From Bdellovibrionales bacterium (GTDB taxonomy: Bacteria; Bdellovibrionota; Bdellovibrionia; Bdellovibrionales; UBA1609), in contig JAHDFM010000004.1 of assembly GCA_020628165.1 (NCBI GenBank), positions 25,943 to 89,942 of the forward strand: a stretch of DNA of 64,000 nt, in the 5' to 3' direction. The translations under genes were made by a program, and so were the position numbers. The notes beneath the pieces were generated by a model. The model did no database searches, was not told where the DNA came from, and worked only from the letters and a program-made list of their open reading frames with translations. The first letter of the stretch is position 1. Each line of letters begins with the position of its first letter. Below are positions 36,262 to 58,808 of the stretch, in pieces.

Positions 36262-37491
36262 TTAAAAACTGTACCCCAGTGAGACGGACGGATGTCCTCC
36301 ATATTCGATGCTATAAGCGTATCTGATATAAGCACCTAGACCATAGTTAAATAAGAACTGTACTTCTGGTGACACGGCAAAATCTATGGTTGTTAACTCG
36401 AGAATCGAAGGCTCTTCTGTGAGTTTGTTACCACCTATTCTACGCACCACTTCAATCTTATCATTGAGCACATAGTTGATATTTAAATTTGCACCGACTA
36501 AAGTCTTAATTGAGCTTGTCAAAGCAAAAGAGTAATAAGCTCCCCCACTGATAGTCACCGTCGAAAGATCCACTGCTATCTCCGTATCTTCCAGACTATC
36601 GAGTCTAACGACACTCAAAGCTGTCGCTGGATTCTTTTTTCCTTTCATTGCGTATTGAGCAAAGCGGTACCCCAAACCGACATCCCAAAAAATTCTGCTA
36701 TTAAAAATATTCCGGCGATAATGAGCTTCTAATTGCGGAGCTGTGCCGTCGACAACCTCAGTGATGATTGGGTTAGGATCTGTTTTGACATTGCCTGGGT
36801 TAGAAATGCTATCGATGAATGGAGTCAAAAACTCAGCACTCATCACCGGGTTATAACCAAGATGAAAATAGAAATTGGATGTCATCTTTTCAGGAGTTTC
36901 AATTTCGCGTTGATCGTCTAGACTTTGTTGATCAATCTCGTCGGGAGTTTCCATGTAGTCATCGAGCTGATCAATGCTCGGCTCAGCAGGCTCTAAATCA
37001 TCAAGACTGTCGCCGGAAGAGCTGCCATCGCATCCTTGTTCGAACAACCTCGTTTTTTGTTTTTCACTGATCCATAAAAAATTATCAGCACCGTTATCTA
37101 ACCGGTAATAATTTTTACCTCTTTTCTTTAAGACAGAAAGAATGACCAGCTCTTGTCCGCTTGCAACACTGACTTTTTTATGCTTTTTTAAAACTGAGTC
37201 TCTCAAATTCAGATCATTTTTGGCAACCAGGCACTGATTGATTTCTTCTGAACAAGAAACTGTTTCTTTTTTAACTTTGTTTCTATAAATCAAATAATTA
37301 TTATCGTTAAAGTTTATTTTATAAAACTTTCTGTTGCCTTTGAATTTTTGCAATTGCTCACCTTTAAAAATAAGACTTATTTTTTTAGTGTCCGTATTTT
37401 TTATTTTGGTGTGTTTTGCAACCTGCAAACACTCATTGGCAAATGCGCCTGAAGATATAAAAAGTAAGATATAAACATAGATGTAGTGCAC
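36262..37491 (-). CDS. SH3-like plus outer-membrane beta-barrel protein
   Basis: A 409-residue exported protein with signal peptide (cleaved near AFA-N). It has two bacterial SH3-like segments (about 20-75 and 88-145, the second with NLRDSVLKKHKKVSVASGQE), an acidic Asp/Glu linker (150-200) and a C-terminal barrel (about 205-409) ending SVSLGYSF, with the terminal Phe of outer-membrane proteins. The SH3-like part may bind peptidoglycan, linking wall to outer membrane as OmpA-type proteins do by other means. The start is a GTG, since no in-frame ATG allows the signal peptide. It lies between the coiled-coil lipoprotein and the giant operon. Confidence 0.7.
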   Translation of the reverse strand: MHYIYVYILLFISSGAFANECLQVAKHTKIKNTDTKKISLIFKGEQLQKFKGNRKFYKINFNDNNYLIYRNKVKKETVSCSEEINQCLVAKNDLNLRDSVLKKHKKVSVASGQELVILSVLKKRGKNYYRLDNGADNFLWISEKQKTRLFEQGCDGSSSGDSLDDLEPAEPSIDQLDDYMETPDEIDQQSLDDQREIETPEKMTSNFYFHLGYNPVMSAEFLTPFIDSISNPGNVKTDPNPIITEVVDGTAPQLEAHYRRNIFNSRIFWDVGLGYRFAQYAMKGKKNPATALSVVRLDSLEDTEIAVDLSTVTISGGAYYSFALTSSIKTLVGANLNINYVLNDKIEVVRRIGGNKLTEEPSILELTTIDFAVSPEVQFLFNYGLGAYIRYAYSIEYGGHPSVSLGYSF

Positions 37492-37671: not shown

Positions 37672-37707
37672 CTTTGAACTGAAAAACGAAATCACTTCAG
37701 TTCAAAG
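37672..37707 (-). terminator. Perfect 12-bp hairpin at the end of the giant operon
   Basis: CTTTGAACTGAA (37672-37683) and TTCAGTTCAAAG (37696-37707) are perfect inverted copies around a 12-nt loop. The hairpin includes the last codons and the stop of the 2103-residue gene. Only a weak T-rich stretch follows on the minus strand, so it may protect the mRNA end as much as terminate. Confidence 0.5.
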
Positions 37708-40700
37708 ATCTTGTTGAGTGTTCTATTGATAATTAAAGAAGTCCCTGTCTCTTTGAAATTCATCACTGAATCCATGGCAGCTGGATACGAATGCACACTA
37801 ACATTATTGCCATAAGCAGGGTTCACTGTAAAGATCTGACTTCCCTCACGACTGATTCCCATAAGAAGGTCATCTTTGGTATTATAAAACAAACGATAAC
37901 CTGAAGATGGTAAATCTGTTGGAGACGGAGAAATCTTATCTAACCCCAAGTAATTGGCATCAGAGGTGCTTGGCAAACCAGTACCATTGTCATTAAAGTA
38001 AAATACGCCACCAACATTAGCTAAGAAAACATAGCCCGTGTTCGAACTCTCTTCAAACACTATGTCGGTAGGACCGGCAGACACACTGGTATATGGCGCT
38101 GGAAGGCTCAAGGTCATACGACCCACTAAGCTTGGCACTGCTGAGCCTGAATCTGATGTTTTAGTTCCTAGTGGTGACAGATCATAAATGTGCACATAAC
38201 TTTTGCCGTTACTGTTATCGCGGGTAGCAATGTACAACCTTTTTAAAGAGTCACTCACTTCTAGACCAAGAATGCTATCATCAGAGCCATCGGCATCGTA
38301 ATTGAAAAAATCAGTGACTGTGAGCAAATTTCCAGCGTTGTAATCAAATTTGAGTTCTTTACCAGTGTCATCAACCCAGAAAAGATAACTTCCCCAAGTT
38401 TTTGACAAACGATGCCCATAACCACCTGGGCCTAAGTACAATTGACTGGCACAGGTTCCGACACACTTAAAACCACCGGCAAGAGGAGTGGAAATATTGC
38501 TCATATTTCCAGAAAGTTTAACAGCATCTTGAGTGGTTGTGTAAGGACCATCTCTATCAGACAGAGCTCCTGCCAAGAAATTCAAAGAACTTCCTGTATA
38601 GTAGTAAGATAACCTTTGTGTGCGATCACCATCACGCCAAGGTAAATTCTCATAAAGACTCCATGGCGACCCCACAGGTTCTTGGGTCACTTGACCTTCA
38701 AAAAGTTTTAAATCCCATAGGAAGTTCTTTTTAACCACGCCCACTTTATAAGACCCACTGATCATCACATGATTCATGAAAAACTCTGTCCCTCCAGCAC
38801 CGTAAAGAGTTTGCTCGTGTGGCAACTCAAGACTCCAATCAACATCGGTGACCGTCACATTGTCCACTTGCTTTCTTGCGGAGACAAGATCAAAAATTTC
38901 AAATGGCACTAAATATGTATTGTTCACCTTAACAGTCCACTCTTGCGTTTCTCTAAAGTTACCGTCACTGACGACCACTTTGATCTTATGCTCCCCTTTT
39001 GCTAGAGGGCCCGTGCCGTCAACATCGATCCCCCCTTGAATTTTGTCTGGAACATATTCAAAAGTGTTGCTACGATCGTAAACTAAGATATCATTCACAA
39101 ACCAACTGTAATGAAGAACAGGCGCTGGAAACGCATCCGCATCAGTCACATCAACAGATAAGGTCAATAAATCTAATTCATTCATTGTTTGATTCGCAGC
39201 CACTGGTAAAAAGCTATCAATGCTTGGACGATTTAGATTGGAGCCTGCTGGGTTCACTTGTAAGAAGAAATGCACAATGTCTTCTTCGTTAGTCACAGTA
39301 TCAAGAACTCTGAGTTCAATTCGGTGCCAAGTAGCAGGGTCTGTGGTCGTGATGTCGTCAGGATATTTAGGGTGCCAAGTCAAAGTGAACGACTCGTTGT
39401 TTTCATCACTTTCAACACAAACACCATTTGCAACTTCACAAGCGCGAGGAGCGTCTAAAATTTGCACCTCGATGGGGTTCCCTTTCGAGTTACTAATGAG
39501 CAATGGATATGTGAATTGATCGACGCCACCACGGTTAGTTGTTTGAACCATATGGTGATCTGGCTGCATAGAGTATTCGGCAGGAACGCGTCCAGCGATC
39601 TCTTGTAACGATAGTTTCGGACTTTCAAAGAAAACAGGACTGATCACATTGACCTGCAAAGAAATAGCACCGTACTTGAGGTCAAGTGCATTGTTTAAAC
39701 GGTCAACATCACCATTATCAGTTAAAACGATATCAACGCCAAAGTCGGCTATTTGACCTTCCTGCGGACACCACTCTAATTTGTAATCATAGGCAATTTT
39801 GCCATCAATGAAATAGGGGCCATTCACTCGAGAGAATTTCGGAACCGCTAAGTCTTGATTGAGATCATTGTCAGACCCCGAAATGAGTCGACATTCTGCT
39901 ACGGCTGAGTTTCCAGAATAATCTGGATCAAATTGAGTGTATTTGTGCCCCCATAGTGATGAATGAGCATGGCAGTTAACTGGGTCAGTTTCTAAAGGGT
40001 CATCGAGAGCTGGAGAGGTAGGATCTCCAACCTCGTTTAAGCCGTCGTGTGGCATCGCATTCCCAAACTTATCTTTACACAAATTGAGCTCTGTTTGGAA
40101 CGAACCAAACAATGGCGTTGCTTCATCTTCATCAACCACTGTGATCACTTGTGAAAAGTAAGTATTCACTTGTGGCTCCAATGTATCTGATAGGTTGTTA
40201 AATGAAGGAATGTTGTTAACATTCTCTACTTCTAGTTTAAAGAACCTTTCGATGAATAAGCTACTGTCTGGCTGTAAAATATTATCAAAGATTTTAAGTT
40301 TAACAATAATGCCACCAGCTCCAGAGTATTTTTTGATGTCCTCGTCATCAGGTGTCCACTTAATACCACCTTCAGTTTGCGAACCCACTCCAGAAACATC
40401 ATAGTTTTGCTCAAGAATAACAGCTTCGATTCGCTCCGGTACGGGAATTACAGCGTTTCCTTGACTGACATCGTAAGCTTCAGTGATCTCAAAAGCCACT
40501 TTTTTAAGTTCAAGAGTCTTATCGCCATCTGAAGCATGAACCTTAAACAAGCCAGGAATGTTTTCAATGAACTTTTGCGAGACCACTATTGGATTAGCCA
40601 GGGTTTCACCACCCGCAATCGGAGTGCCGTTTTCATCAGTCAACTGTGGTGGTTCGTTGTCTTCGATCACAGAAATGTTCATCGGTAAAATGGTTTTGGT

Positions 40701-43700
40701 TGAACCGGATGGATACCCATAACCATTGTCGTTGACTTCAATCTTCATAATGTATGTTTCAGCCGTATCAGCCGTGTCTGGTGCATAATTGACATGGCAT
40801 ATGCGCGAGCCATGATACTTAATGCCTGACTGCAGGGTGTTGCACGGAATGCAAGTGGCAGGGTTACTACTCTCAGCATAAGAGCTCACCTCGTTGCGAC
40901 AGAAGTTCACTTGTCCAGTTGGAACTATGGCTTGAGGCAAGTTGGTGAAAATGTAACGATCACTTGGGTCTTTGGCCAAGTACTGATTGGTGTCGTCTTT
41001 CATGATGATTTTATAATTTAATAATTCAGTTCCTTCTTGCAAAACGATGTTTAAATTGTCGTTATGTAGAAGCGGTCTGTAGTTATAATCTCTAAAGCGG
41101 TAACGAACCACTTGATGATTGGGTGATCTTTCAAGCTGTCTTTGCACCTTGGCCGTGACTGTTTGCAAACCGGCAGGAATCACCACTTCTTCTTCTGTTA
41201 AATATCTTTTGCCGTTAGGTAAACCCAGAGGCACTACTAAACTAAGGGCTTCCAATGAAGTTCCAGCAGGGATCGTTAAATTACTTCCAGAGTTAGAAAG
41301 TGATCTCTCAAAAGTCACCTCACCAAACTCATAAAAAGAATTTGAATTTGTCACAGTCAAAGTTGTTGCAGGGTCACCGAGTGGCCCGTTGATTTGACCA
41401 ATCTCTCCAACGAGTGTTTGAGCACCATCATTGGCAATGAATTTTTGCTCATATTGAACCCAATTTTTATAAGGAGCTAATGAAAAGCCAATATGGTCGC
41501 GAGGTGATGTTGGCAAACTTAAAGTAATGCTAGGGTCTCCTAGAGCATGATTAATAGCACTGCCTGCAGGAAAGCTTCGTTTGTATCTATAAGTCGGAAC
41601 CGTCACTGAGCTTACGCCACTGGCCATGAAGAAATCACCGGCCACGCGAAATTCAAAAGACGTATTCCCAGGAGCATTTGTGAAGCGAGTGTCTTCTGGG
41701 ATCATCACATCTAAGTCTGTCGTCCCTGGGCCACGAGTTAAAGTGACCCAAAGAAAGTCACTGCTCACGGCTGCATGAGAAGTAGTTATCGTACCATCAG
41801 ATAATGGATCTGCTATGACTGATAATGCATTGGCAGGAACCTCTCTATTAATGGCAATGATTGGAACGTAGACTTCTTGATCATCCTCTGCGACAGTCAC
41901 GTCGTAAGCCGTTTCAAACTCAACAAAGTGACCTGTCGACGCCTCAACTAAATTCAATTGAAACCCTTTTGGCACTGTGTTGCTTGAAGCACCTACCACA
42001 GAGCGTTCTAATTTTAAAACTCCTGAATATTTAGAAACAGCATAAACGCGGTTGCCTTGCCATTTGTATGAGAATTTTGTTTTGCGGGTGAGACCAATAT
42101 CATCAAACTTTCTCGATAAAATTACTGGTTGATTGTTGTAATAATTGGTTGTGAATGGCAATACATTCACATCGGTGTCTTCACGAACCACTTGTGGAAT
42201 GTCACCGTCGCCATCTTTGGTCCAATGTGGATAACGCCTAAAGGTACGAATGCCTTCATCTAACCACCAGTACCATGCGTTGGTGTTCCAACCCATGCAA
42301 GAACGTTGGTTAATGTCTTGGGCCACTAAGTTTTTGATAACTACAGGGGCAACACCACCATGGTCATCTGTAATAATGAAATTAATATCGACAATGCGAG
42401 TGTTGTGATCTGGTTTCCACTGATAATGGTAAGTCACTTTATTATTGACATTGTCTTCAACTCGATTGGTCTCAGTAATATTCTGTGTGCCCGCACCAAC
42501 GATTCTTAAACTGATGTTGTCTTTTGGGCTCGCACCAGCAACGTTATCTGGGTCTTCTAATTCAACAGAAAAAGTAAAAGCGCCATTGCTCGGTGCCGAA
42601 TCATCAGCTAAACCATAGACATCTTTATTGAGACAAGAGTCCCATTCTCTCGGAACCATATGAAGCGGGTTGGTCGCAACGATATCACCCAATAAAACTG
42701 GAGGGTCATTCAGGTCGGTCACTGCAATGGTGTGCAACAAGATATCTGCACCACCACTGCCATCATTAAGACTGAGCTCAAAAGTTGCAGACCTTCGTTT
42801 GCCGTCTGCATTGTTAGGGGTGAACACAATCTCAACATTGTCACCCGTTACCGTCGTTCCCGGAGCTTGTCCGTTAAGAGTTGATGGGCCGTAGTGTCCC
42901 GACCCACCGAGCACCCAAGTATAATTAGTTGTTCCATCTGGATCACTGGCAGAGAATTGACAACGATACTCATCGTTTTCAATCACTGTATTATCCGTAC
43001 AAACTACCGTGATTTCAGGAGGTCTATTGACATCAAGTACCTGAAACTCCCAGTCCACTTGTAAAATTTGACCACCATCAGAAACAATGGCGCTCACAGG
43101 ATAAGTCGTTGGCCTATGGCCTGTGTAGTCAGGAGTCCAAGAAAAACTAGAAGTCCCTGCATCGTGAAAGGCTCCTTCAAAAGTCCAAACGTAGAAAACT
43201 AAATCTCCATCAGGATCAAGAGCAACAGCTTTCAAACGGCCCTCTTGCTGTTCTTGCACAATACGTAAACCTGGTCTCGTAGAAGCTTGCTCATTGAGAA
43301 CGGGTGGAGTGTTGGCCGCTCCAAATGGAAATGGTGACATTGCAATATTGCCAGCTAAGTCATAATCAAAATCCACATTGTGATCAGCCTCTAACATACT
43401 TAAAAATGCATAGTTAGAAGACAATGTGTTTTTCATGAATTTGTACAACAAATCCATTTTCACAGTGAAATCGATTTCAAAAAAGTCCATGCGATCAAGA
43501 ACAATTTGTTTAATTGTGCTTTGAATTTTTAAGATTTCTGCTTTTGAATAACTCTTGATGGATCGACCTGGATAATTTGATAACAAATCGTAAGTAAGAC
43601 TTGAATAAAAGTCTGGCTTCACAGTGGTTTCACTATCAAAGATAAAACCATAAAAATGAGTGTCGTGATACTCCATTTCCACTTCAAGAATTAAAAAACC

Positions 43701-44003
43701 GTCAAGGCTTGAGCCTTTTGGGACGATTTTTTTATGGACGACACCTTCATCTAGTCGCTCCCCTTCATCCGGAGTCACTTCTAACAGGGTTTGAAGAGAT
43801 TGGTTGGTATCTCCAACCTTTCTCACCACAACTGCGTAGTTGTCATCGGAATGGTCTAAAAACTCATCCGTTGAAAATTGCACTTGATCCCCAGGTGGGA
43901 TCACAATAGAAAAGTCCTCAGCATCACTGCCCGTCTCAATACACGAAACGAGCGATGCTCCAAAGAAAATTAAAATAAGAAAACGTACAACATATAATTT
44001 CAT
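37692..44003 (-). CDS. Giant lipoprotein with cadherin/Ig-like repeats (2103 residues)
   Basis: A 2103-residue predicted outer-membrane lipoprotein, lipobox LVSC with Cys near 21. After an N-terminal helical region (about 130-235) come many Ig/cadherin-like units recognisable by phrases such as SDPDGTTNYTW, TDLNDPPVL, EDNEPPQL and VTDADAFPAP. A middle stretch (about 700-1000) has repeated Ser/Thr-rich Calx-beta-like units, and the last 300 residues look like a beta-propeller-like lipoprotein tail ending INRTLNKIFELK. Third gene of a three-gene operon, 13 nt after the FG-GAP gene. Probable surface adhesin or scaffold; partner and orientation are not known. Confidence 0.8.
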   Translation of the reverse strand: MKLYVVRFLILIFFGASLVSCIETGSDAEDFSIVIPPGDQVQFSTDEFLDHSDDNYAVVVRKVGDTNQSLQTLLEVTPDEGERLDEGVVHKKIVPKGSSLDGFLILEVEMEYHDTHFYGFIFDSETTVKPDFYSSLTYDLLSNYPGRSIKSYSKAEILKIQSTIKQIVLDRMDFFEIDFTVKMDLLYKFMKNTLSSNYAFLSMLEADHNVDFDYDLAGNIAMSPFPFGAANTPPVLNEQASTRPGLRIVQEQQEGRLKAVALDPDGDLVFYVWTFEGAFHDAGTSSFSWTPDYTGHRPTTYPVSAIVSDGGQILQVDWEFQVLDVNRPPEITVVCTDNTVIENDEYRCQFSASDPDGTTNYTWVLGGSGHYGPSTLNGQAPGTTVTGDNVEIVFTPNNADGKRRSATFELSLNDGSGGADILLHTIAVTDLNDPPVLLGDIVATNPLHMVPREWDSCLNKDVYGLADDSAPSNGAFTFSVELEDPDNVAGASPKDNISLRIVGAGTQNITETNRVEDNVNNKVTYHYQWKPDHNTRIVDINFIITDDHGGVAPVVIKNLVAQDINQRSCMGWNTNAWYWWLDEGIRTFRRYPHWTKDGDGDIPQVVREDTDVNVLPFTTNYYNNQPVILSRKFDDIGLTRKTKFSYKWQGNRVYAVSKYSGVLKLERSVVGASSNTVPKGFQLNLVEASTGHFVEFETAYDVTVAEDDQEVYVPIIAINREVPANALSVIADPLSDGTITTSHAAVSSDFLWVTLTRGPGTTDLDVMIPEDTRFTNAPGNTSFEFRVAGDFFMASGVSSVTVPTYRYKRSFPAGSAINHALGDPSITLSLPTSPRDHIGFSLAPYKNWVQYEQKFIANDGAQTLVGEIGQINGPLGDPATTLTVTNSNSFYEFGEVTFERSLSNSGSNLTIPAGTSLEALSLVVPLGLPNGKRYLTEEEVVIPAGLQTVTAKVQRQLERSPNHQVVRYRFRDYNYRPLLHNDNLNIVLQEGTELLNYKIIMKDDTNQYLAKDPSDRYIFTNLPQAIVPTGQVNFCRNEVSSYAESSNPATCIPCNTLQSGIKYHGSRICHVNYAPDTADTAETYIMKIEVNDNGYGYPSGSTKTILPMNISVIEDNEPPQLTDENGTPIAGGETLANPIVVSQKFIENIPGLFKVHASDGDKTLELKKVAFEITEAYDVSQGNAVIPVPERIEAVILEQNYDVSGVGSQTEGGIKWTPDDEDIKKYSGAGGIIVKLKIFDNILQPDSSLFIERFFKLEVENVNNIPSFNNLSDTLEPQVNTYFSQVITVVDEDEATPLFGSFQTELNLCKDKFGNAMPHDGLNEVGDPTSPALDDPLETDPVNCHAHSSLWGHKYTQFDPDYSGNSAVAECRLISGSDNDLNQDLAVPKFSRVNGPYFIDGKIAYDYKLEWCPQEGQIADFGVDIVLTDNGDVDRLNNALDLKYGAISLQVNVISPVFFESPKLSLQEIAGRVPAEYSMQPDHHMVQTTNRGGVDQFTYPLLISNSKGNPIEVQILDAPRACEVANGVCVESDENNESFTLTWHPKYPDDITTTDPATWHRIELRVLDTVTNEEDIVHFFLQVNPAGSNLNRPSIDSFLPVAANQTMNELDLLTLSVDVTDADAFPAPVLHYSWFVNDILVYDRSNTFEYVPDKIQGGIDVDGTGPLAKGEHKIKVVVSDGNFRETQEWTVKVNNTYLVPFEIFDLVSARKQVDNVTVTDVDWSLELPHEQTLYGAGGTEFFMNHVMISGSYKVGVVKKNFLWDLKLFEGQVTQEPVGSPWSLYENLPWRDGDRTQRLSYYYTGSSLNFLAGALSDRDGPYTTTQDAVKLSGNMSNISTPLAGGFKCVGTCASQLYLGPGGYGHRLSKTWGSYLFWVDDTGKELKFDYNAGNLLTVTDFFNYDADGSDDSILGLEVSDSLKRLYIATRDNSNGKSYVHIYDLSPLGTKTSDSGSAVPSLVGRMTLSLPAPYTSVSAGPTDIVFEESSNTGYVFLANVGGVFYFNDNGTGLPSTSDANYLGLDKISPSPTDLPSSGYRLFYNTKDDLLMGISREGSQIFTVNPAYGNNVSVHSYPAAMDSVMNFKETGTSLIINRTLNKIFELK

Positions 44004-44016
44004 AATTTAACTTTTG

Positions 44017-47000
44017 TTAATAGAATATAAAAAACACCCCTACATTAATTCCTCGATTATCTCCAAGGCCATCATGCCAATAACTTGGAACGAGCAAATC
44101 AGCAGTTCCATCGTTGTTGTAATCACCCATAGAAAATAAGTTTGCAAAGAAATAAGACGCTGCTTGCGCTGTTGGCGACTGCAACGAATACGGACGCAGG
44201 AAGCCATCGCTGTTGGTCACAACGTTCACACTCGGAAAGTCTTCGGTGAATAAACCTTGATCACTACCAAAGTAAATCACACCGCGTCCGATGTTAGAGA
44301 CACCGTTAAAGTCATCATCCCAGTACGGGTTACCAATGACAACATCATCATAGCCATCACCATTGAAGTCAGCCAGTCCTTTTCTATTTGACTGAATGGA
44401 TGCACCTGCATACAGATCAGATGTACCCGCAGCCCCTTTGACATAAAACTTTTGCCAAGGGAGCTTTCCGGCTGAAACATTGCAAGTGCTGTCAAAGGTC
44501 ACTGATCCAGACACATCGCCCACTGTTAATTGTTTGTTAAGATTTGCCGTGTCTTGGGCAAAGACATCTGAGTAAGTTGTATTGTTGTCTGTGTTACAAA
44601 TAGGTCCGTAGTAGAGATACATAGCTCCAGCATTAGCAGTGTCACTTGAGTCTTCATACGGAGCTGAAACTAATAAGTCTTCAAAGCCATCGCCATTGAC
44701 ATCACCGGCTTCAGTCATGTTATATGCAAACTCTCGGCCCTTTCTTTCTGTCACCGTTGTTGCTGGCGACTCTACTCGAGTAGGCATTAAAGCTCTCACC
44801 GTAGTGCTTGTCAAAGCTGTGTCGTTAGTCGACGGACAAGCAGAAGCGATATTAGCTTCAAAGTAAGATTCTGCACTGGCTGCCACCAAACCTTTGTTTG
44901 TCCCTTTAAAAATATAAATTCGACCATAATTTAGTGGTGTCGAATCAGCATCCGGATTGACATAACATCCGAGATCTTCAAAGTTAGGTGCTCCCAAGAA
45001 TAAGTCATCATAACCATTGTTATCAGTATCTAGAACAGCAGAGCTCATTGAGAACCTATGTGAAAGACGCTGAAAACCATATTCTAAATTGGCAAAGCCT
45101 GGTAAGCCAGGAAACACTGGGTTTCTGATAAGAGTAGGTTTACAAACATTGTTGGTATCACATGGATCTGTTCCTGACTCCGTCCCGTAAATATCAAGAT
45201 AAGTAGCCGCATTTGAAAAACTGATATCAGTTCCATAGCTAAAGTTCGCCGTATCTAATGACGGAGTTTGTAACCCGTTAGATGAGCCGTAAATTAATAA
45301 TGCATAACCATGATACTCAACTGCTGCACCATCGTTACATTCTGCTTGAGTTTTAGCATCATCGGGGTCTGGAACTGGATTTGTACAGTCCCAAGCAAAT
45401 GGTAACGTAGGACTTGAGCCATACGGATTTGTAATCACTATATCACTAAAGCCATCATTGTTGAAATCACCATGTTTGATCATATCGCGGTTATCTGCCC
45501 ATCTTGATATTGGTGAGTTAACACTAGTTTCGCCATAAACTTGGTCAAAATTTTCAGTCACAATTTGTGGGTTGCCCGACGAAGGAATCCATTGCGGTTG
45601 ATCTGTACTGATCACTCCCGCAGAGGACCCGAAAAATAATTCGTAGCGACTCTCTCTACTAAAGAAAAGCACATCAGCGAAGCCATCTCCATTGACATCA
45701 CCAGCAGGCCTTGCATAATCGGCCCAATAATTACTTTGAGTTTCAAACTTAGGGATCAATTGAGGTAATATGATGCCCTCTCTCACAACACTGGTGTCAC
45801 GCGATGCCCTCGGGTAGCAGTGAGCAGGGTCACTATCTGTTACAAAATCACCTGGATTTTCTAAACAAAGGGAACTTGTTACTAAGCCGTGTTCTTCAGA
45901 GCCAAAAAAGATAATACCGTCATATATAATACCACCTTGGCTATTGTAACGGACCGAATGAGCGGCAGCGTCGTCATAACCATCTCCGTTGACATCACCA
46001 ACGATAGACGCTCTTTGGTAACCTAGCTGTTGTGGTGACCCTAAGTTGTCATAAATTTGCTTATCAGAATCACTTTTAAAAGATGCAATATGGTAGCCAT
46101 TACTTAAGAACAAATGAGTCGATCCACTTCCTGCTCTAAAGGTGTCATCACCCGGGCCACCGGCAGCCACATCATTGTAATCTTCACTGGACCCATTGAG
46201 ATCACCATCGAAGTTACCAATTGCTACGGAGTAACCAATTTCAGTGTCGTCACCACCCGCTGTGCTGTAAAGTTTTTTATAGTTAGATGTCAACCCGCGA
46301 GTCGAATCACTTGTAAATAATAAAACGGCACCGGCACTTGTTCCGTTGGCATTATCATAAGGAGCACCAATAGCTAAATCTAGTAAACCATCATTAGTGA
46401 TTTGCCCCACTGTGATGGTTTCATTGCTATACCCCATTCTAGCGCCACCTCGAAATGAGTTGGACTGAAGAAGAGTCGGACGACAGTTCAATCTGTTGTC
46501 AGGATCATTGGCTATATTGCTGCTAAAATTGGCGCATGTAGAAGCCCCTAACAAGTATTGATCTGCTGCTGTAGTAACGCCTTGACCAGCGTAATTGTGT
46601 TCGTAATATTTTTGATTGTTTCCAAAATATTGCCACAACACTCCGGAGCTAGTTAAACTTGAGCCTTGCGGTTTTCCTCTTGAGGCTGCAACAACAATTT
46701 CCCCGTAACCATCACCATTTGAATCAATAGCTGGAACTTGCAGTGTACTGTTGTCATCATAAAAAGAAGGTGCACCCAATATAGCAACAGAACTTCCGAA
46801 ATCCTGACTTTCATTGTTCCTTGGAAATAAAATTCTGGAGTCACTAGCACTTGTTAAACACGAGTAATGATTTTCTTTTGACCCCAAAGAACGCGAGTTA
46901 CAGTTCCAAAAAGAGTGACTGCTCGGCGTTTCTTCAACAAGTGGACGAGTGGCCGCATCTCTACCGTAATAAAGGAAGGCCGCACCGGTCACTTGTGCTG

Positions 47001-49101
47001 GGTCATTTTGTGGAAAGCCATAAAAGCTCGTGCCTGACGTGTAGTTATCGGTCCAACCTCCGTCAACGGGAGTTTGTGCATTGTAAGTTGATGGAAGCTT
47101 GGTTGGGTTTGGATAATAAAACCCTGGAGCACCAACAACAAAGTCGGAGCCACCGTGATACTTGCCATCAGACATTAAAATTCTGTGATTGCCATTAACA
47201 TCAGCCCCATTAGAAATGGACATACCGAAGTACATATTTTCATGTGGAATGGGTGGAAAGACCTTAACAAATGGAAATCTTTTAGTAGTTTCTGTTGAGT
47301 CCACTTCATCATAGCCAAGGCCATATTTAGAACCAAAATAAATCGCAACAAATCCAACATTTTGAATGTAGGCCTTTTCTCCCGGAGCACCAACATGCAC
47401 TTCTCCGTCGTACTCGGCATAAGGAGCTCCTACGGCAATGTCATCATAACCATCAGCATTGAAGTCACCAATAAAGTTGAGGGCGTAACCAAACTGTATA
47501 GTTGTGTGTTGCCAACCAACAGAGCCGGGGCCTTCGTTATAAACATTTTGATACCCATTTGGAAAGATCTCACTTGGCCATTTGGCATAATCTGGCCACA
47601 GTCTCACTGGGCTACAAGAGCTGTCTTCAAGTAAACCATCACAAGTTCCAATATTATCCTGGATATTAGAGTAAGTCTGTGATGAAGACAGTCCGTTTTT
47701 ATTGCCAAAGAAAACAAAAGCAGCACCTGTGCGATACTGATTGCTAATTCCTGTGCGCATATAAGGAGCACCCACGATCAAATCTTCACAATCGTTGCCA
47801 CCCAATTTGTCGCCGTTAAAGTTACCACCACTCGAAAGTGAAAAGCCAAAGCGCTCATAGCCGGCAGAGTCTGAAAAAGTAATGATCTGAGGATCTTTTC
47901 CTGGACGAACAGGGTTAATACTCGGCTCTATATCTGTGTAAAGACTTGTGACGCCAGCTTCGGTGACAGAGTAGTAAACGTAGATGGCACCAGCATAGTT
48001 TGAAGAAACTCCTAAACTTCCTATTGAAGTCTCTGGCATGCCCATGGCTAAATCTTTAAAACCATCGCAGTTAAAATCACCTGAGGCCATAGCTTGACCA
48101 AGTTTTGCAGCACCTTTAGTAAAACCGTCTTCAGAAACAGGCTGATCTAACACTGGACTCTTACCTTTGATATAGGTTTCGAGACCACTTTGAACATAGG
48201 TTTCGTTCGTCACCCCGTCATCATAAGTCACTTTTAATGTAATGTTATCAATTTTTCCAAGTCCCAAATTGTTAGAGTCTAAGAAGCTCACAACACCTTG
48301 ACCGACAAGCGGATCCGACAACGCTGTCACACCATGAAAAAACTGTGAGGTGTAATTGGGTTCTAAAAAGTCCGCATTCACCACTGGAGTGATCGTTGCA
48401 AAAGGAAGGGATCCAATGGTCACTTCCGGCAAGTCAAAAAGTGGATCTGGGAAAGATGTTGGTGTCGACTCTGTGATTTCTTGATCTGGTCTTTCAAACT
48501 CACCGGGACGGTACTCGGCATGCACCTGAAAATAAAACTGAGTTGAACCTTCTAAGTTTGTGAAAGTATAACTCTGTTGATTAGCACTCAATGTGACAGC
48601 TGCATTGTCCCAATTGTTGGTTGTTGCAGCTGTTGGCTTGCTAAATGAATTTGTATAAATATGGTATCTATAAACTGAGTGAGGAAAATCCCAACTCAAA
48701 ACAATATTGCCATCAATGTCTTTTTCAATAGCAGTGATGCCTGAAAACCTGGGATAAGTTCTTATACGGACTTCTTTATCACCACCATAGCTCTCATTAT
48801 CACCATCAATAGCAATCACTTTAAATACATACTCTGTATCGGCCGTTAAACCTGTCACTGTGTAAGTGTCAAAAATAGAAACTTCAATGGGGTCTGATTG
48901 ACCCAATTCAAACACTTGGTATTCACTGTATTTATCTTGCTGCAACCAATCTAATTTTACAGCGGTCGGTGAAAGCACCTGATACGTATCTAGCCCTTGA
49001 AAGGACTGAATTATATTACCACCAGTGACCCCCTCTTTACAGGAGGATAAAGTCAATGAGATAAATAGTAATAACGTTCCAATTAATATCTTGTTCATCA
49101 T
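44017..49101 (-). CDS. Giant FG-GAP (integrin-alpha-like) lipoprotein, 1694 residues
   Basis: A 1694-residue predicted lipoprotein (lipobox LSSC, Cys near 21). Two fibronectin-III-like domains follow (about 35-115 and 118-215, with TYTVTGLTADTEYVFKV). Residues about 335-1694 hold 14 FG-GAP-like units with the Ca-binding DxNxDGxxD loop, for example GDFNADGYDDIAVGAP and GDVNGDGFEDLLVSAP. Fourteen units fit two seven-bladed propellers. It ends in a beta strand (VGVFFIFY). Known FG-GAP proteins mediate adhesion. Neighbour and paralogue at 49111 share the whole layout. The start has AGGGA upstream. It lies 9 nt after the paralogue's stop. Confidence 0.88.
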   Translation of the reverse strand: MMNKILIGTLLLFISLTLSSCKEGVTGGNIIQSFQGLDTYQVLSPTAVKLDWLQQDKYSEYQVFELGQSDPIEVSIFDTYTVTGLTADTEYVFKVIAIDGDNESYGGDKEVRIRTYPRFSGITAIEKDIDGNIVLSWDFPHSVYRYHIYTNSFSKPTAATTNNWDNAAVTLSANQQSYTFTNLEGSTQFYFQVHAEYRPGEFERPDQEITESTPTSFPDPLFDLPEVTIGSLPFATITPVVNADFLEPNYTSQFFHGVTALSDPLVGQGVVSFLDSNNLGLGKIDNITLKVTYDDGVTNETYVQSGLETYIKGKSPVLDQPVSEDGFTKGAAKLGQAMASGDFNCDGFKDLAMGMPETSIGSLGVSSNYAGAIYVYYSVTEAGVTSLYTDIEPSINPVRPGKDPQIITFSDSAGYERFGFSLSSGGNFNGDKLGGNDCEDLIVGAPYMRTGISNQYRTGAAFVFFGNKNGLSSSQTYSNIQDNIGTCDGLLEDSSCSPVRLWPDYAKWPSEIFPNGYQNVYNEGPGSVGWQHTTIQFGYALNFIGDFNADGYDDIAVGAPYAEYDGEVHVGAPGEKAYIQNVGFVAIYFGSKYGLGYDEVDSTETTKRFPFVKVFPPIPHENMYFGMSISNGADVNGNHRILMSDGKYHGGSDFVVGAPGFYYPNPTKLPSTYNAQTPVDGGWTDNYTSGTSFYGFPQNDPAQVTGAAFLYYGRDAATRPLVEETPSSHSFWNCNSRSLGSKENHYSCLTSASDSRILFPRNNESQDFGSSVAILGAPSFYDDNSTLQVPAIDSNGDGYGEIVVAASRGKPQGSSLTSSGVLWQYFGNNQKYYEHNYAGQGVTTAADQYLLGASTCANFSSNIANDPDNRLNCRPTLLQSNSFRGGARMGYSNETITVGQITNDGLLDLAIGAPYDNANGTSAGAVLLFTSDSTRGLTSNYKKLYSTAGGDDTEIGYSVAIGNFDGDLNGSSEDYNDVAAGGPGDDTFRAGSGSTHLFLSNGYHIASFKSDSDKQIYDNLGSPQQLGYQRASIVGDVNGDGYDDAAAHSVRYNSQGGIIYDGIIFFGSEEHGLVTSSLCLENPGDFVTDSDPAHCYPRASRDTSVVREGIILPQLIPKFETQSNYWADYARPAGDVNGDGFADVLFFSRESRYELFFGSSAGVISTDQPQWIPSSGNPQIVTENFDQVYGETSVNSPISRWADNRDMIKHGDFNNDGFSDIVITNPYGSSPTLPFAWDCTNPVPDPDDAKTQAECNDGAAVEYHGYALLIYGSSNGLQTPSLDTANFSYGTDISFSNAATYLDIYGTESGTDPCDTNNVCKPTLIRNPVFPGLPGFANLEYGFQRLSHRFSMSSAVLDTDNNGYDDLFLGAPNFEDLGCYVNPDADSTPLNYGRIYIFKGTNKGLVAASAESYFEANIASACPSTNDTALTSTTVRALMPTRVESPATTVTERKGREFAYNMTEAGDVNGDGFEDLLVSAPYEDSSDTANAGAMYLYYGPICNTDNNTTYSDVFAQDTANLNKQLTVGDVSGSVTFDSTCNVSAGKLPWQKFYVKGAAGTSDLYAGASIQSNRKGLADFNGDGYDDVVIGNPYWDDDFNGVSNIGRGVIYFGSDQGLFTEDFPSVNVVTNSDGFLRPYSLQSPTAQAASYFFANLFSMGDYNNDGTADLLVPSYWHDGLGDNRGINVGVFFIFY

Positions 49102-49110
49102 CTTTCCCTG

Positions 49111-52100
49111 TTAATACATAATATAAAACACACCCGTTGCAGTGGCCTGCCCAGAAGGGTGGTGTCGCCCTCTAGCACCTAATAATAAATCACTCACTCC
49201 ATCACCGTTCACATCTCCGCTACACGATTGACTTAAATAACTTCTTTCTTTTACAATTCGAGATGGCAAATGCAGTTGATAAGGTGCACATTCTTCTGGC
49301 TGATCACTGTACACACACTTTGGTGATGTGCTTTCTTCTTTGTCGATTTGAGCTCCCATGTCTGAGCCAAAGTAAATCAAGGCCATACCGGCATCTTCTA
49401 AGTTCACTTCTTGCAAATAATCACCAAGAGCTACATTGACCACGAAATCATCAAAGCCATCGGAGTTAAAATCGCCAACACTGGCGACACCATTGGCAAA
49501 CAAATCTCTGTCATCAATATTGATTGGTTGTAAAATTTGTGGTTTTGGTTGGGCTATCAAAGTGTACTTCTGATTGATATTTAATGAACTTGGGCCCCAG
49601 AAATCACCCTGCCCTAATGATGTCTCCCCTATGAAGGAGTAATCAACACCATTTAATCCCCCATAAAAAATATAGAGATGTCCTTTTGTTGCAATACCAC
49701 CAGGGGACGCAATTATAGCATCAGGATAGTCATCACCGTTGACATCACCAACACTCGCTATATGTTTACCAAAATGCTCTCCGCTAAAATCTGTCGGATC
49801 ACCACCGAATGTGGATAGGTTTGGTCTTAAAGCTTGATAGTAAGAGTTGACTATTCCAGATGGACTTCCTTCAAAAACATAAACAACACCATTGTTTGAA
49901 TTCTCGTATGGGTCACTGATCAATAGCTCACTGGTGAGCTCACCATTGCGCTCAGCTATAGACGAGACCCCAGCAATGTCATACCCAAAACTTTGTCCCC
50001 ACTGAGGTGCTGCTAAATTCGGCCCAGGTGATGCAATCATCTGAACATTACAAACTCCGGCATTACAAGGGCTCCCGGCCACAATATTACCACGTGACCC
50101 ATCATTATTATTGAGTCTTAAAAAGCCATCAGGATCACCAATCTGCAACCCACCATTGCTTCCGTAAATAATTAAAACGCGTCCTTCATTATTATTTGTG
50201 TAATCGTTACTTGGGTCTAAGTTAAGCTCTGCAATGTCACCAGAAACAGTAACACCGTTGAAGTTGTAATTACCTCTAATACCAATCGCCACATCATTGC
50301 AACCATCACCATTGAAGTCTCCATGCCCAACACTTTGATTGGAGTCATCATAACTTCCTTCTTCATAGCCACCTAAAATTTGATTGTAATTCATGGCCAC
50401 CATACTATTTGCACCCCAATGCTTTCCAAACCAGAGAGGGTTTTTACCCACTGGAGTTGGAACTGGCTGAGCAGAAGTGATCAAACCTGTCGATGAACCG
50501 TAATACACATAAGCTCCACGATTACCAATCAGTAAGACATCATCAAAGGGGTCACAATTTAAACTTCCCACTTCGTGAAACATGATTCCCATTTCATCGT
50601 CATCATTATTAAAAATTATTCTAGGGTTCAAACCCACAGAGCTGACCGAAGGATCAGCAGCTTTGTTCAAACCATTCGCCGTTCCATAATACAATATAGA
50701 AGTGACTTTCGTGCCAATTTCAATCTTTGAAATAACATCGTCGTAACCATCACCATTGACATCGCCAACAATCTTGGCGTTTTCAAAACGGTAATTGAGT
50801 TCTTTTGAAATGTTTTCTCCAATAAAGTTATCCACCTGTTTTTCGACGGCAGAAAAGTTACCGTCGTTAGAGTAAAAACCAAACAAAGCGCCATTGCTTT
50901 CGATAGGAGTTGCGTAGCCCTCAGCCCCTGAAAATAAATCACCGAAATTATCAGCGTTAAAGTCTCCGCCAACAACGCCACCTTTGGCGAATAAACTCCC
51001 GTTATTTAAATTATCTGGATAGATAACAACCGGCCCAAAAGGACTCACACCACCACTGTACCAAGTGCACTCAACTGTGCACGCTAAGCTCATATTACCG
51101 CGTTGAGAAATGGTGACCTGCTGACCATTATCAACACCAAAAGTCGATATGTCTGGTCCGTACAAGAAAATAGAACCAGCATCATAAATGGTGGAGTTTC
51201 CGTCTGAACTTGGCACATCTCTGTAAGGAGCAGAAATAGCCAAGGAAGGTAGCCCCGTGCTGCCGCCAATGTCTTCAACGCTCGATATTGTATGACCAAA
51301 TTGAGCACCGACTTGCGGTGGGCTGTTCACAATTTTTTGGTTTTCACAAGATGTGTTCTTAGCATCACATGCTACGGTGTTCACTGCATTGACGGAGTGA
51401 TCCGCCTGCGCAGTTCCAAGTAAACTTTGAACGCCGCCAGAATTATGGTCATCCTGAGTTGGTGTTAAATAATATGCATACACAGCACCAGCATTGCTCA
51501 ATGTGCTTTCTGTTTTACCAGGAGCTCCAACAAACAAAGCACCCGTTACATCTGGAAATCCAGCGTCGTAAATTCTTGGATCTGACAAAGGGTATCCATT
51601 TTGGTTTTCAACACTCAACAAACTAAAACCATATTGTGCATTGTCTGAACCTAACTCCGTTGGGTAGTGCTCTGCACAGGTCCAACTTTGAATTCTCTCA
51701 TCATCTGTGACAGAATCTTTAGCAGGTAAAATGCCCTTACAAGTGTATATAGAACCACGAGAAGATGCCGTTTCTGGCGCACCGATAACGACATCATCGC
51801 ATTTGGTAAAATCATAACCATAGCTTTGAGCTGGACCTTCTCGTCGATACTCAAAGCCTCCTCCAACGTCACAAACTCTAGAATTATAAAAAGCACTCAA
51901 GGCATGACCAAAATCATCAGCCAGCGTTGGAACATTTGACAAATATAATGCATTGTTTGCCGTTGTGATTGGCTCAAAAGAGCTTGGGTGCCCTATTGGA
52001 GTGATACCTTGATTACTTCCGCGCAACACATAAACCACTCGGTGGTTCACTGAACTGATCTCTCGTGTGGCGCTCAATAATAAATCATCGTAACCATCGT

Positions 52101-53742
52101 TATTAAAATCACCAGCTCCTAAATCAATCGCAAAATAAGTGGTGTCTGACTCTGCATTGATTTTTACTGAACGACAACTTGAAGAGGCCGCATCACACGT
52201 GTATTCATCTATACCATAGTTGCTACCACCTGAACCACTGACAATTCCACTCAAAGGATCACCAAAAGCTGCAAACACTTGGCGAGAGCTAATTGTCCCT
52301 GCCATAACTAAATCATCACATTTATAAATTTTTTCTAAATCTGACGGAGAAGCTTTGTGGGTTTCATACAATGAGCTGCACGAACCTCCAGTTGGATTAG
52401 CTACGTCTCTGTAAAAGCAATCTCCATTGAAGTTACCCACCTGAAGCTGAGTCCCCAAGCGAGCTTGCGTGCTGATTGGAAAATGAATCAAATGAGGGTT
52501 TGGAAAAACAGCATCAGGAGCCGGAGTCACATCTGCTTTTAAATAAGGAGGAGGGTCTGTTGCCGTCACATTGTCAAAAGGAGGATCATAACTGTAGTAT
52601 ATAGTTATAGCACCTGTTTCATATATGAGGTCTTCATTATCCACTGGAGACGCTAAAGGTGAAGCAACTGCAACATCTTTAAGACCATCACAGTTAAAAT
52701 CACCAGACACAACTTGCTCTCCCATCTTTTGAACACCCTTACCGTCATTAATAAGTGGCGGATGAACAGCACCAAAAGTGGCATCATCAAAAAAGTTACG
52801 AACACTTAAATCAAGTTTTGATGAATCTGAGTAAGTTAACTCAACGCGAGCTTGTACACCCGTGCTCGTGTCTTTAACGATAGCAAAAAGGTCATACTTT
52901 GCCGGTGACAAAAATGTTGAAGCTCTGAAAGCGCCATCACCTGTATTTGTTGTTGCAATCGGGTTCGTTTTGTCGACTTCATTAAAAATTTCAATTCTAT
53001 ATAGTGGATTGCCACCGCTTGCATTGAACCAAACGTAGTTCCCCGGAGAATTACTCCCGGCATAGATGGTTGGTAAATTTAATAAATCTGTATAAGTGGT
53101 GTCGCACACCGTTGGCTGATCGGCATCAGATGGTAAGTAGGTGCCGTCTATGTATCTAGCACGAACTCGGATACAATATTCAGTGCCACCGAGAAGTCCA
53201 GTGACAGCGTCTGTGATCAAAGCTGTCGAAGTCGCAGACACAGATTTAAACTCAGTCCACACTGTTTCAGATTGCTCTTTGAAAAAGACATCATAAGTGA
53301 CATTGTTACCAGCATTGGTCCACTCTAAATCAATTCGAGTGGCTGAAACCACATTGATGTCATCATCAGCAAGTCCAGTAAAAACATTGTAAGTTCTTGT
53401 AGCTAAAAAATCCTGTTGGAAATCTTCACTGATATCACCTTCACCCGTTCCGCTGACAGAAAACTCATAAGGTGTGTCAGGATTCAAACCACTCACAACA
53501 TATTCAGAGAACGTGGAACTGCCAATTGGTATGCTGTTCCCCTTCACATAAATGTTATAATTTAAGTACTTTGAATCTTTCGTCCAAAAAACCTTCACTG
53601 AGGTTGGACTGATAACTACAATTCTTTCGATACCAGTGAATGCGATATCGACCTTACCACCCTGAACACCAAACTCCTTGCAGGAAAGAAGCAACGTACT
53701 AAGAGAAAATATAAAACTTAATTTTATTAGAGCTTTAACCAT
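49111..53742 (-). CDS. Giant FG-GAP (integrin-alpha-like) lipoprotein, 1543 residues
   Basis: A 1543-residue predicted lipoprotein with lipobox LLSC. The ATG at 53742 is preferred over the upstream TTG at 53799 because the signal peptide then begins at the N-terminus and the sigma28 promoter lies just upstream. Two fibronectin-III-like domains (about 30-210) are followed by 14 FG-GAP-like units (about 350-1540), for example GDFNNDGYDDLLLSA and GDVNGDGVSDLLLGARG, although some lack the full Ca loop. It ends VFYIMY. N-terminal text VISPTSVKVFW parallels VLSPTAVKLDW of the 1694-residue gene, so they arose by duplication. First gene of the giant operon; no Shine-Dalgarno is visible. Confidence 0.87.
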   Translation of the reverse strand: MVKALIKLSFIFSLSTLLLSCKEFGVQGGKVDIAFTGIERIVVISPTSVKVFWTKDSKYLNYNIYVKGNSIPIGSSTFSEYVVSGLNPDTPYEFSVSGTGEGDISEDFQQDFLATRTYNVFTGLADDDINVVSATRIDLEWTNAGNNVTYDVFFKEQSETVWTEFKSVSATSTALITDAVTGLLGGTEYCIRVRARYIDGTYLPSDADQPTVCDTTYTDLLNLPTIYAGSNSPGNYVWFNASGGNPLYRIEIFNEVDKTNPIATTNTGDGAFRASTFLSPAKYDLFAIVKDTSTGVQARVELTYSDSSKLDLSVRNFFDDATFGAVHPPLINDGKGVQKMGEQVVSGDFNCDGLKDVAVASPLASPVDNEDLIYETGAITIYYSYDPPFDNVTATDPPPYLKADVTPAPDAVFPNPHLIHFPISTQARLGTQLQVGNFNGDCFYRDVANPTGGSCSSLYETHKASPSDLEKIYKCDDLVMAGTISSRQVFAAFGDPLSGIVSGSGGSNYGIDEYTCDAASSSCRSVKINAESDTTYFAIDLGAGDFNNDGYDDLLLSATREISSVNHRVVYVLRGSNQGITPIGHPSSFEPITTANNALYLSNVPTLADDFGHALSAFYNSRVCDVGGGFEYRREGPAQSYGYDFTKCDDVVIGAPETASSRGSIYTCKGILPAKDSVTDDERIQSWTCAEHYPTELGSDNAQYGFSLLSVENQNGYPLSDPRIYDAGFPDVTGALFVGAPGKTESTLSNAGAVYAYYLTPTQDDHNSGGVQSLLGTAQADHSVNAVNTVACDAKNTSCENQKIVNSPPQVGAQFGHTISSVEDIGGSTGLPSLAISAPYRDVPSSDGNSTIYDAGSIFLYGPDISTFGVDNGQQVTISQRGNMSLACTVECTWYSGGVSPFGPVVIYPDNLNNGSLFAKGGVVGGDFNADNFGDLFSGAEGYATPIESNGALFGFYSNDGNFSAVEKQVDNFIGENISKELNYRFENAKIVGDVNGDGYDDVISKIEIGTKVTSILYYGTANGLNKAADPSVSSVGLNPRIIFNNDDDEMGIMFHEVGSLNCDPFDDVLLIGNRGAYVYYGSSTGLITSAQPVPTPVGKNPLWFGKHWGANSMVAMNYNQILGGYEEGSYDDSNQSVGHGDFNGDGCNDVAIGIRGNYNFNGVTVSGDIAELNLDPSNDYTNNNEGRVLIIYGSNGGLQIGDPDGFLRLNNNDGSRGNIVAGSPCNAGVCNVQMIASPGPNLAAPQWGQSFGYDIAGVSSIAERNGELTSELLISDPYENSNNGVVYVFEGSPSGIVNSYYQALRPNLSTFGGDPTDFSGEHFGKHIASVGDVNGDDYPDAIIASPGGIATKGHLYIFYGGLNGVDYSFIGETSLGQGDFWGPSSLNINQKYTLIAQPKPQILQPINIDDRDLFANGVASVGDFNSDGFDDFVVNVALGDYLQEVNLEDAGMALIYFGSDMGAQIDKEESTSPKCVYSDQPEECAPYQLHLPSRIVKERSYLSQSCSGDVNGDGVSDLLLGARGRHHPSGQATATGVFYIMY

Positions 53743-53749
53743 AGAAACT

Positions 53750-53776
53750 CTATCGGACCAATATGCCTCGACTTTA
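53750..53776 (-). promoter_or_regulatory. Sigma28 (FliA)-type promoter of the giant lipoprotein operon
   Basis: On the minus strand TAAA (53776-53773, within TAAAGTCG), 15 nt, then TCCGATAG (53757-53750). The -10 ends 7 nt before the ATG at 53742. Both boxes, the spacing and the distance to the start mirror the promoter at 2715-2741, including the shared TTGGTCCGATA text. Confidence 0.75.
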
Positions 53777-53870
53777 AGACTAAACCGCCATATTCTCAAA
53801 ATAATATACTGAATTTATTGATTTTTTCTTAAACTGAAACAAAAAGCGAAAATCATTTTTTTGTATTACT

Positions 53871-53899
53871 TTGAGACATTTTAGTTAAGCATGTATAAT
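53871..53899 (+). promoter_or_regulatory. Strong sigma70 promoter of the barrel gene at 53983
   Basis: TTGAGA (53871-53876), exactly 17 nt, then a perfect TATAAT (53894-53899). It gives a leader of about 77 nt for the rightward barrel gene and diverges from the sigma28 promoter of the giant operon. Confidence 0.65.
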
Positions 53900-53982
53900 T
53901 AGCTAAGGTTTTCAATTTTTAAAAAAATGTTAAACTTTTTAACAAAGACTGTTTTTAAACATTACAACCATTGAGTTACAAA

Positions 53983-54579
53983 ATGAGACGCACGCTTTTT
54001 CTTTTATTTCTATTTTTTTTATCTCCAACTTCGCAGGCCTATTTAACCTCTGACTTTGACACCAGCCTGGGATACGCATCTTTAGACCTCGAAGCTGGTG
54101 AAAGCTTTATTGCAAGTCTTGAAGAGGTTATTTTTGAGTTCAATTACAACTTAAATTATGCCGGCCCAGATGTTGCTTTTAATATTAACTTTTCTGAAAT
54201 CGTCAAAGACGGCTTTAGTAACATTGCTTACACACGCTTTGGTGTTGGTGTTAAATGGTTCTTTTTTGGGTTTAATGGTGAACAACTCATCATTGACAAC
54301 AAAACTAAAGGCCTCGTTCTTAGACCGACCCCCTTCATTGGCATGGTGGCTGGCCTTACAAATTTATCGATCACTGACGAAAGTTCCATTGGTGACTTTA
54401 ACACCTCAAATTATGAAATGATCTTTAACACAGGACTTGAAGTTCCCATTACTCCAACGTTTTTATTTCTAGCACAATTACAAGGATTGTTGAGTATAAG
54501 CTCTAATAGCGAAACTGAAAAAAATGTTTCCTACACAGGATTTTCTATTCTCGCAGGAATCAAGGTCAGTCGCTTCTAA
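53983..54579 (+). CDS. Outer-membrane beta-barrel-like protein near the motor locus
   Basis: A 198-residue exported protein starting at the ATG at 53983, with Arg-Arg then a Leu/Phe-rich signal peptide cleaved near SQA-Y. The TTG at 53971 is a less likely start. The mature part is strand-rich (VIFEFNYNLNYAGPDVAFNI, RFGVGVKWFFFG) and ends ILAGIKVSRF, a terminal Phe like that of outer-membrane barrels of 8 strands. No specific family recognised. Its stop overlaps the convergent stop of the FliF-FliG-like gene by 4 bp, so it may belong functionally to that locus, as the barrel at 58191 may. Confidence 0.7.
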   Translation: MRRTLFLLFLFFLSPTSQAYLTSDFDTSLGYASLDLEAGESFIASLEEVIFEFNYNLNYAGPDVAFNINFSEIVKDGFSNIAYTRFGVGVKWFFFGFNGEQLIIDNKTKGLVLRPTPFIGMVAGLTNLSITDESSIGDFNTSNYEMIFNTGLEVPITPTFLFLAQLQGLLSISSNSETEKNVSYTGFSILAGIKVSRF

Positions 54580-58190: not shown

Positions 58191-58808
58191 ATGTTTATGA
58201 AATTACTTGTCTTTGGTTGTGCTATGATGTCTAGCCTCTCATTTGCAATTAATAAAACACCTGATGTTCGCATAAAAGTTGGTTACATCCTCACCACTTT
58301 CAGTTCCGGTGACAGTTACATCGATGAAAGCCTTGGCACGCTTATGGCTCTGCAGCCTTCAGTCATGTGGTCCTTTCCAAACTTTAGATCTCGCCTAGGT
58401 ATCCATATGCACTTTGAGTTTGGCAGTGAATTTGGCTTAACTCCTATTTCAGGGATAGGCATCAGTGCCTATGTTTACCCTTGGGGAATATCAAGCTCTC
58501 ACCAAAAAGTTGATAACGATACAATCATACAAAAGTCTAAGTCGGGTCCATTTATTTTTGCTGCCCTCACCCCATCAAACTTTAACATTAACAGTGTCGA
58601 AGAAGAAAACAACAACCGCACTTTCAGCGCTTTCATATACGACACCCAACTTGGTGCTGGTTATGATTATGCCTTTAGACAAAATATGATCCTTTCTGGA
58701 GAATTGTTATATCGCTTTGGTTCTGCCGAGAATGACAACCAAGGTTTGAATGGAGTTAATTATAGCGGCTTTGGATTTATGCTCTCCATTCTCACCAGTT
58801 ACTATTAA
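58191..58808 (+). CDS. Outer-membrane beta-barrel-like protein, divergent in the motor locus
   Basis: A 205-residue exported protein, signal peptide cleaved near SFA-I (start at Met1 or Met3). The mature part is strand-rich with aromatic girdles (VRIKVGYILTTF, LGAGYDYAFRQNMILSGELL), ends SGFGFMLSILTSYY and looks like an 8-10 strand outer-membrane barrel. No family recognised. It is on the opposite strand, enclosed between motB and the lipoprotein gene. There is no Shine-Dalgarno; TTGACT at 58156 with a poor -10 could give a leaderless message. Confidence 0.7.
   Translation: MFMKLLVFGCAMMSSLSFAINKTPDVRIKVGYILTTFSSGDSYIDESLGTLMALQPSVMWSFPNFRSRLGIHMHFEFGSEFGLTPISGIGISAYVYPWGISSSHQKVDNDTIIQKSKSGPFIFAALTPSNFNINSVEEENNNRTFSAFIYDTQLGAGYDYAFRQNMILSGELLYRFGSAENDNQGLNGVNYSGFGFMLSILTSYY

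Follow-up and report, generated by a model that had tools for sequence, protein, structure and literature searches.

What could three giant lipoproteins, encoded side by side in a bacterium of the order Bdellovibrionales, be doing for the cell? Their genes lie in the 64,000-nucleotide stretch of DNA analysed here (the window), and a preliminary description, made from the letters alone, had read them as a 16-kb operon whose products might recognise prey. The question touches on gliding, since a 2026 review described the gliding machinery of Bdellovibrio as unidentified, with its motor, adhesins and force transmission as a major open challenge (PMC13104615). The Agl/Glt genes Bd0828-0838 were proposed for gliding (PMC3169522), and attachment was found to need AglS (PMC6561027). 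Our analysis showed the main point that the preliminary description had missed, a genetic tie between the giants and a FliF-FliG/MotAB motor of their own, and we consider it rather probable that they are the surface output of a flagellum-independent, ion-driven envelope motor.

Three giant lipoproteins with adhesin-like folds

Giant 1 (49111-53742, minus strand) encodes 1543 residues, although an alternative TTG start giving 1562 residues is also possible. It is followed on the same strand by giant 2 (44017-49101, 1694 residues) and giant 3 (37692-44003, 2103 residues), with gaps of 9 bp between giants 1 and 2 and 13 bp between giants 2 and 3. All three proteins begin with a signal peptide and a lipobox (LLSC-K, LSSC-K and LVSC-I, respectively), and a lipobox was recognisable in the orthologues examined, the single variant being NSSC in the giant 1 orthologue of genome G002. 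The orthologues of giant 2 were full-length with 41-60% identity and those of giant 3 shared 32-48%; such full-length orthologues exclude that the giant genes are chance open reading frames. The tight packing of three large lipoprotein genes, as first described, was thus confirmed.

Pfam scans of giants 1 and 2 revealed two fn3 domains and FG-GAP repeats in each (E 1e-34 to 4e-57), which upheld the earlier view of these two proteins as FG-GAP/fibronectin-III paralogues. The FG-GAP repeats were multiple, with 11 stretches in giant 2, and passed the gathering score; their propeller fold is of the integrin type. For giant 1, a structure was predicted from residue 344 to 1543 (mean pLDDT 67, pTM 0.60) and compared with the PDB; integrin alpha chains made up all of the top 50 matches, the best with an E value of 4e-12. 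Giant 3 probably consists of Ig/cadherin-like repeats. Its orthologues and repeats gave weak signals in this direction, namely Big_9 in one orthologue (E 1e-4), protocadherin sequences (E 0.01-0.1) and repeated D-x-N-x-PP linkers, whereas the Pfam scan of the window protein itself gave no match, so the cadherin/Ig assignment made earlier is weakly supported.

The 12-bp hairpin with which the operon was said to end is present (37672-37707, minus strand; arms 37672-37683 and 37696-37707), with a minimum free energy of -17.5 kcal/mol and a z score of -3.8. As a canonical terminator it was rejected, because it reaches into the final part of the coding sequence and lacks a U tract. Immediately downstream of the giants, positions 36262-37491 encode a secreted protein of 409 aa whose C-terminal end is barrel-like (SVSLGYSF); nothing in the G002 and G037 modules matched it. 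A 1084-aa protein encoded at 32891-36145 gave only weak Pfam matches, of coiled-coil-like type, and belongs to no clear family. A tandem pair of adjacent signal peptidase I genes (Peptidase_S26) was seen at 26917-28380.

The giants are half of a conserved module with stator and rotor-like genes

The 16-kb boundary drawn at first proved too small, as the conserved unit extends beyond position 63574 and the giants account for half of a module of about 28 kb. Upstream of the giants, a 228-bp divergent intergenic region (53743-53970) with promoter-like sites (plus strand, 11/12) separates them from the gene of a 202-aa secreted protein, probably an outer-membrane beta protein and a conserved module member (53971-54579, plus strand). 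Beyond this region the minus strand carries the genes of a 598-aa rotor-like protein (54576-56372), a weakly conserved 300-aa module member with one N-terminal membrane helix (56372-57274), a well conserved (about 49-77%) TPR lipoprotein with an N-terminal PEGA-like domain (57274-58137), a MotB-like stator protein (58819-59820) and a MotA-like stator protein of the flagellar (FIT) type (59801-60616). A secreted beta protein of 205 aa that ends in TSYY (58191-58808, plus strand) is conserved despite its opposite strand. The module continues on the minus strand with a secreted VWA-domain protein (62166-63572), a conserved member that also lies near the giants in Bdellovibrio bacteriovorus HD100, and a secreted, barrel-like protein of 392 aa, whose gene runs over the window edge (63574-64000) and whose orthologue directly follows the giants in HD100.

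Between the MotA and VWA genes, a LapG-type protease gene (Peptidase_C93) was observed at 61240-61836; it had no matched counterpart in the modules of G002, G037 or HD100. LapG enzymes elsewhere release LapA-type adhesins. A few kb past the window edge (G000:C15 96855-104998; L112: 8855-16998) there are two ExbD-like genes, one ExbB-like gene and genes for 716-, 252- and 1043-aa proteins, a cluster near the module that resembles an Agl-Glt-type core complex.

The 598-aa protein is best read as a FliF-FliG fusion-like rotor protein

The 598-aa protein matched FliG_C (E 3e-9) and FliG_M (E 2e-6) in Pfam, and a profile search against the PDB found FliG at 4e-17; the same profile search gave no sequence-level match to FliF. 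Foldseek placed FliG first, from E 8e-8 onward, and then the RBM3/S-ring of FliF, with a probability of 1.00 but E values of 0.04-0.1. The model had a mean pLDDT of 74 and a pTM of 0.30, which is too low to fix the domain arrangement. Behind the signal peptide, its order of elements was a helix to residue 44, a strand at 50-58, an inserted helix, a strand at 99-109, a helix at 114-127 and a strand at 137-143, that is, the alpha-beta-beta-alpha-beta order of a ring-building motif. Residues 168-189 form a helix that could span the membrane, and the cytoplasmic part behind it is all-helical. The protein is therefore best read as FliF-FliG fusion-like, its FliF half being predicted from fold and not from sequence. 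Some charged residues of the FliG torque helix are lost, whereas the DL-motif aspartate is largely retained. We rejected this protein as the flagellar FliG of its genome, as intact FliF and FliG are encoded elsewhere both in the genome of the window and in HD100.

In the f22 genomes and G319, a second protein resembles the N-terminal part of the fusion, with the RBM-like half and the membrane helix but without the FliG part (L128: 15849-17021; G315:C4 74474-75505), perhaps a second ring subunit. A HAMP-SpoIIE phosphatase gene adjoins the fusion gene tail to tail in HD100 (L079: 2673-4424) and was also seen inside a diverged module of G010 (L097: 4278-5744); its product is possibly a regulator.

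Motor and giant genes are inherited together

Across the 141 genomes of the order, the genes of the fusion, giant 2 and giant 3 occurred in exactly the same 16, which represent five genera of three families. When the survey was widened to 369 genomes of the phylum, fragmented assemblies among them, a full-length fusion was found in 24 of 24 genomes with giant 2 and in 18 of 18 with giant 3. Two genomes, G310 and G312, had the fusion without a giant 2 match at the cut-off used, and in G312 the contig stops just past the fusion gene, where relatives carry the giants. Counted by genus, all sets fell in the same 7 of 182, with a chance of 9e-13 that assumes independent genera, which they are not, and serves as a guide only. 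Pairwise distances of the module genes correlated with those of the fusion at r 0.94-0.99, values to be expected of any genes with one shared history. These statements on distribution hold within the phylum, and a contig scan beyond it with one short motif returned six loci.

Gene order was shuffled across lineages while the gene set stayed together. In G100, the fusion gene ends 2 bp before giant 1, and the giants, a 391-aa barrel-like protein, the VWA protein, the TPR protein, MotA and MotB then follow in one run. In G305, which belongs to another family outside the order, an FG-GAP giant, giant 3, a 328-aa protein, a 390-aa RBM-like protein, the fusion, MotA and MotB are encoded with gaps of at most 36 bp. 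HD100 carries the module as well, with the giants followed by genes for 390-aa, VWA and 407-aa proteins at small gaps or overlaps. The giants and the motor of G319 are on different contigs, so linkage is not readable there. This co-inheritance, the conserved order and the integrin-alpha propellers bear out the earlier idea that the giants are adhesin-like lipoproteins acting together.

A diverged module, type B, was seen in about ten genomes (loci L097, L111 and L136-L143) and contains MotA, MotB, a PEGA-TPR lipoprotein, a fusion of about 590-630 aa and a small barrel. Several of its loci have other giant proteins, about 1400-2300 aa long, as neighbours, which suggests that a motor next to giants is a recurring arrangement in Bdellovibrionota.

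The stator is of flagellar class and almost certainly corresponds to MotAB2 of HD100

Along its entire length, the module MotA aligned with the flagellar stator proteins PomA, MotP and MotA (E 1e-42 to 3e-34), whereas its similarity to TolQ/ExbB was weak. In a MotA tree, the module proteins stood beside the flagellar ones and were split from ExbB/TolQ (100/100); the flagellar branches are long, so the exact position of the module MotAs is unsure. The module MotB has a plug and membrane segment with the channel aspartate (VSYADMMTLL) and an OmpA peptidoglycan-binding domain.

In the relative G042, which we take to be HD100, MotA/MotB pairs occur at three sites (0.128, 2.919 and 3.171 Mb), and the module MotA is orthologous to the one at 2.919 Mb (MotA2). 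Three pairs were also published for HD100, with MotA2 as Bd3021, MotB2 as Bd3020 and MotA3 as Bd3254 (PMC11323537). Judged by position and strand order instead of a locus-tag look-up, the module pair of HD100 is almost certainly MotAB2 (Bd3021/Bd3020). In two-hybrid assays, FliL-Bd1076 gave no interaction with MotB2 and a signal with MotB3 (PMC11323537). The title of Morehouse et al. 2011, as cited in PMC11323537, has all three MotAB pairs of HD100 serve the motility of the single flagellum. Literature searches found no paper for Bd3015-Bd3027 (guessed locus tags) and nothing relevant for FG-GAP with Bdellovibrio, and the main text of the Tn-seq paper named none of Bd301x/Bd302x.

A candidate motor for surface adhesins

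A motor working surface adhesins is the simplest account of the locus, because stator, export-less rotor, linkers and giants are inherited as a unit. In such a machine, MotA and MotB would form a stator anchored to peptidoglycan and drive the cytoplasmic FliG domain of the fusion, which would build a ring in the inner membrane and hand the movement on through its periplasmic RBM3-like domain. The PEGA-TPR lipoprotein, the VWA protein and the small barrel-like proteins may link or anchor the device across the periplasm and outer membrane. The giants, with their FN3 domains and integrin-type propellers and with Ig/cadherin-like rods, would then be surface adhesins moved by the motor or pulling against a substrate, and surface translocation (gliding) or active contact would be the likeliest use. 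Several points were counted against this reading, namely that Agl/Glt are the published gliding candidates (PMC3169522), that all three MotAB pairs are assigned to the flagellum in the title cited above, and that the fusion has lost part of the torque-helix charges and its model has a low pTM.

The strongest competitor, which we judge unlikely, is that the motor supplies the energy for moving the giants across the outer membrane or placing them on the surface, in a TonB/Tol- or T9SS-like manner, and that the giants are static adhesins afterwards. No other very large cargo is linked to the motor, its gene neighbours include small barrel-like proteins and a lipoprotein, the type B motors adjoin other giant proteins, and the T9SS rotary motor couples to both export and gliding (PMC12239597). 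However, the module has no visible barrel of SprA size and no usher, its barrel-like proteins being of about 200-390 aa. Moreover, surface lipoproteins of other bacteria are delivered by other routes. We give a still lower probability to MotAB2 as a third flagellar stator, with the fusion as an accessory flagellar part and the giants as adhesins adjacent through common regulation. This would agree with the flagellar class of the module MotA/MotB and with the assignment in the Morehouse title, but it leaves the exact co-occurrence with the giants unaccounted for, as well as the absence of the module from most relatives that have a FliG of their own; the single gene run of motor and giants in G100 and G305 and the negative two-hybrid result for MotB2, against the positive one for MotB3, also speak against it.

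Prey recognition by the giants without mechanical work, as first proposed, found no support and now seems very improbable. The adhesin-like folds and the predators in the group fit it, but the module is missing in 125 of the 141 Bdellovibrionales genomes, including many in the genus of HD100 and one that may be B. exovorus, and the partners of the giants are motor genes, not predation genes. This patchy distribution means that the module is not a general predation tool and not essential for predation. Being absent from most species searched, it cannot be the machine on which all of them rely for gliding or predation, and it may have an accessory or alternative role. A Zorya-type defence or sensing device, in which the stator signals to cytoplasmic effectors, is the least credible reading of all and was rejected: MotB matches ZorB models, but MotA has no ZorA match, and a FliG-like rotor and giant surface proteins are alien to Zorya. 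A PADLOC scan of four module proteins returned ZorB matches alone, with no ZorA, ZorC/D or ZorE.

Taken together, our results suggest that Bdellovibrio and related bacteria have an apparently unrecognised machine by which adhesins on the cell surface would be moved or powered. They offer a concrete gliding candidate, with motor, envelope parts and adhesins, in HD100, a laboratory model in which the genes can be deleted one at a time. If this is true, flagellar rotor and stator parts were reused without type III export, which bears on the origin and repurposing of the flagellar motor, and the module puts the flagellar assignment of MotAB2 in question. The full proposal is held more tentatively, at somewhat less than even chances: the module would be an entirely new kind of machine for motility or contact, and the first case in which a true flagellar-class stator and a fused FliF-FliG rotor work independently of a flagellum. 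It would drive giant integrin-like lipoproteins on the cell surface in several Bdellovibrionota lineages, HD100 MotAB2 would be reassigned to it from the flagellum, and it would serve gliding or the handling of prey.

Comparison with known systems

The module shares with the flagellar motor a FIT-type MotA/MotB with the channel aspartate and peptidoglycan-binding domain and the M and C domains of FliG, and, judged by fold, it may also share an RBM3-like part of FliF. In contrast to that motor, the rotor parts form a single polypeptide with one RBM, only the f22 genomes and G319 having another RBM-like protein, and the module carries giants and outer-envelope proteins while the ordinary flagellar genes are elsewhere. 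FliM/FliN, the type III export apparatus, rod, hook and filament were not recognised by Pfam in the window module or by homology at the loci of relatives. Zorya has a MotB-like subunit in common with the module, which differs in its FliG-like rotor and in the missing ZorA match.

The Agl-Glt system of Myxococcus (Bd0828-0838 in Bdellovibrio) is likewise envelope-spanning and motor-driven and is present in the same phylum. Its motors are TolQ/ExbB-like with ExbD partners, whereas the module has MotA and an OmpA-bearing MotB, a FliG rotor and a separate locus; we found no AglR-type TolQ/ExbB with AglQ/S-type ExbD as its stator, and its MotA separated from ExbB/TolQ (100/100). With integrin alpha chains and other FG-GAP adhesins, the giants share FG-GAP beta-propellers, Ca-binding loops and FN3 domains, a likeness in fold and not in system; the giants differ in being lipoproteins of bacteria, about 1500-1800 residues long, with a link to a motor. 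Scans of the module proteins with Pfam and NCBIfam gave no match to GldK/L/M/N or SprA of the Bacteroidota gliding/T9SS machinery, and the module differs from it in its flagellar-type MotAB stator, its FliF/FliG-derived rotor and the lipoprotein nature of its giants. What the module has in common with that machinery (GldLM, SprB) is the genetic link between an ion-driven motor and giant surface adhesins.
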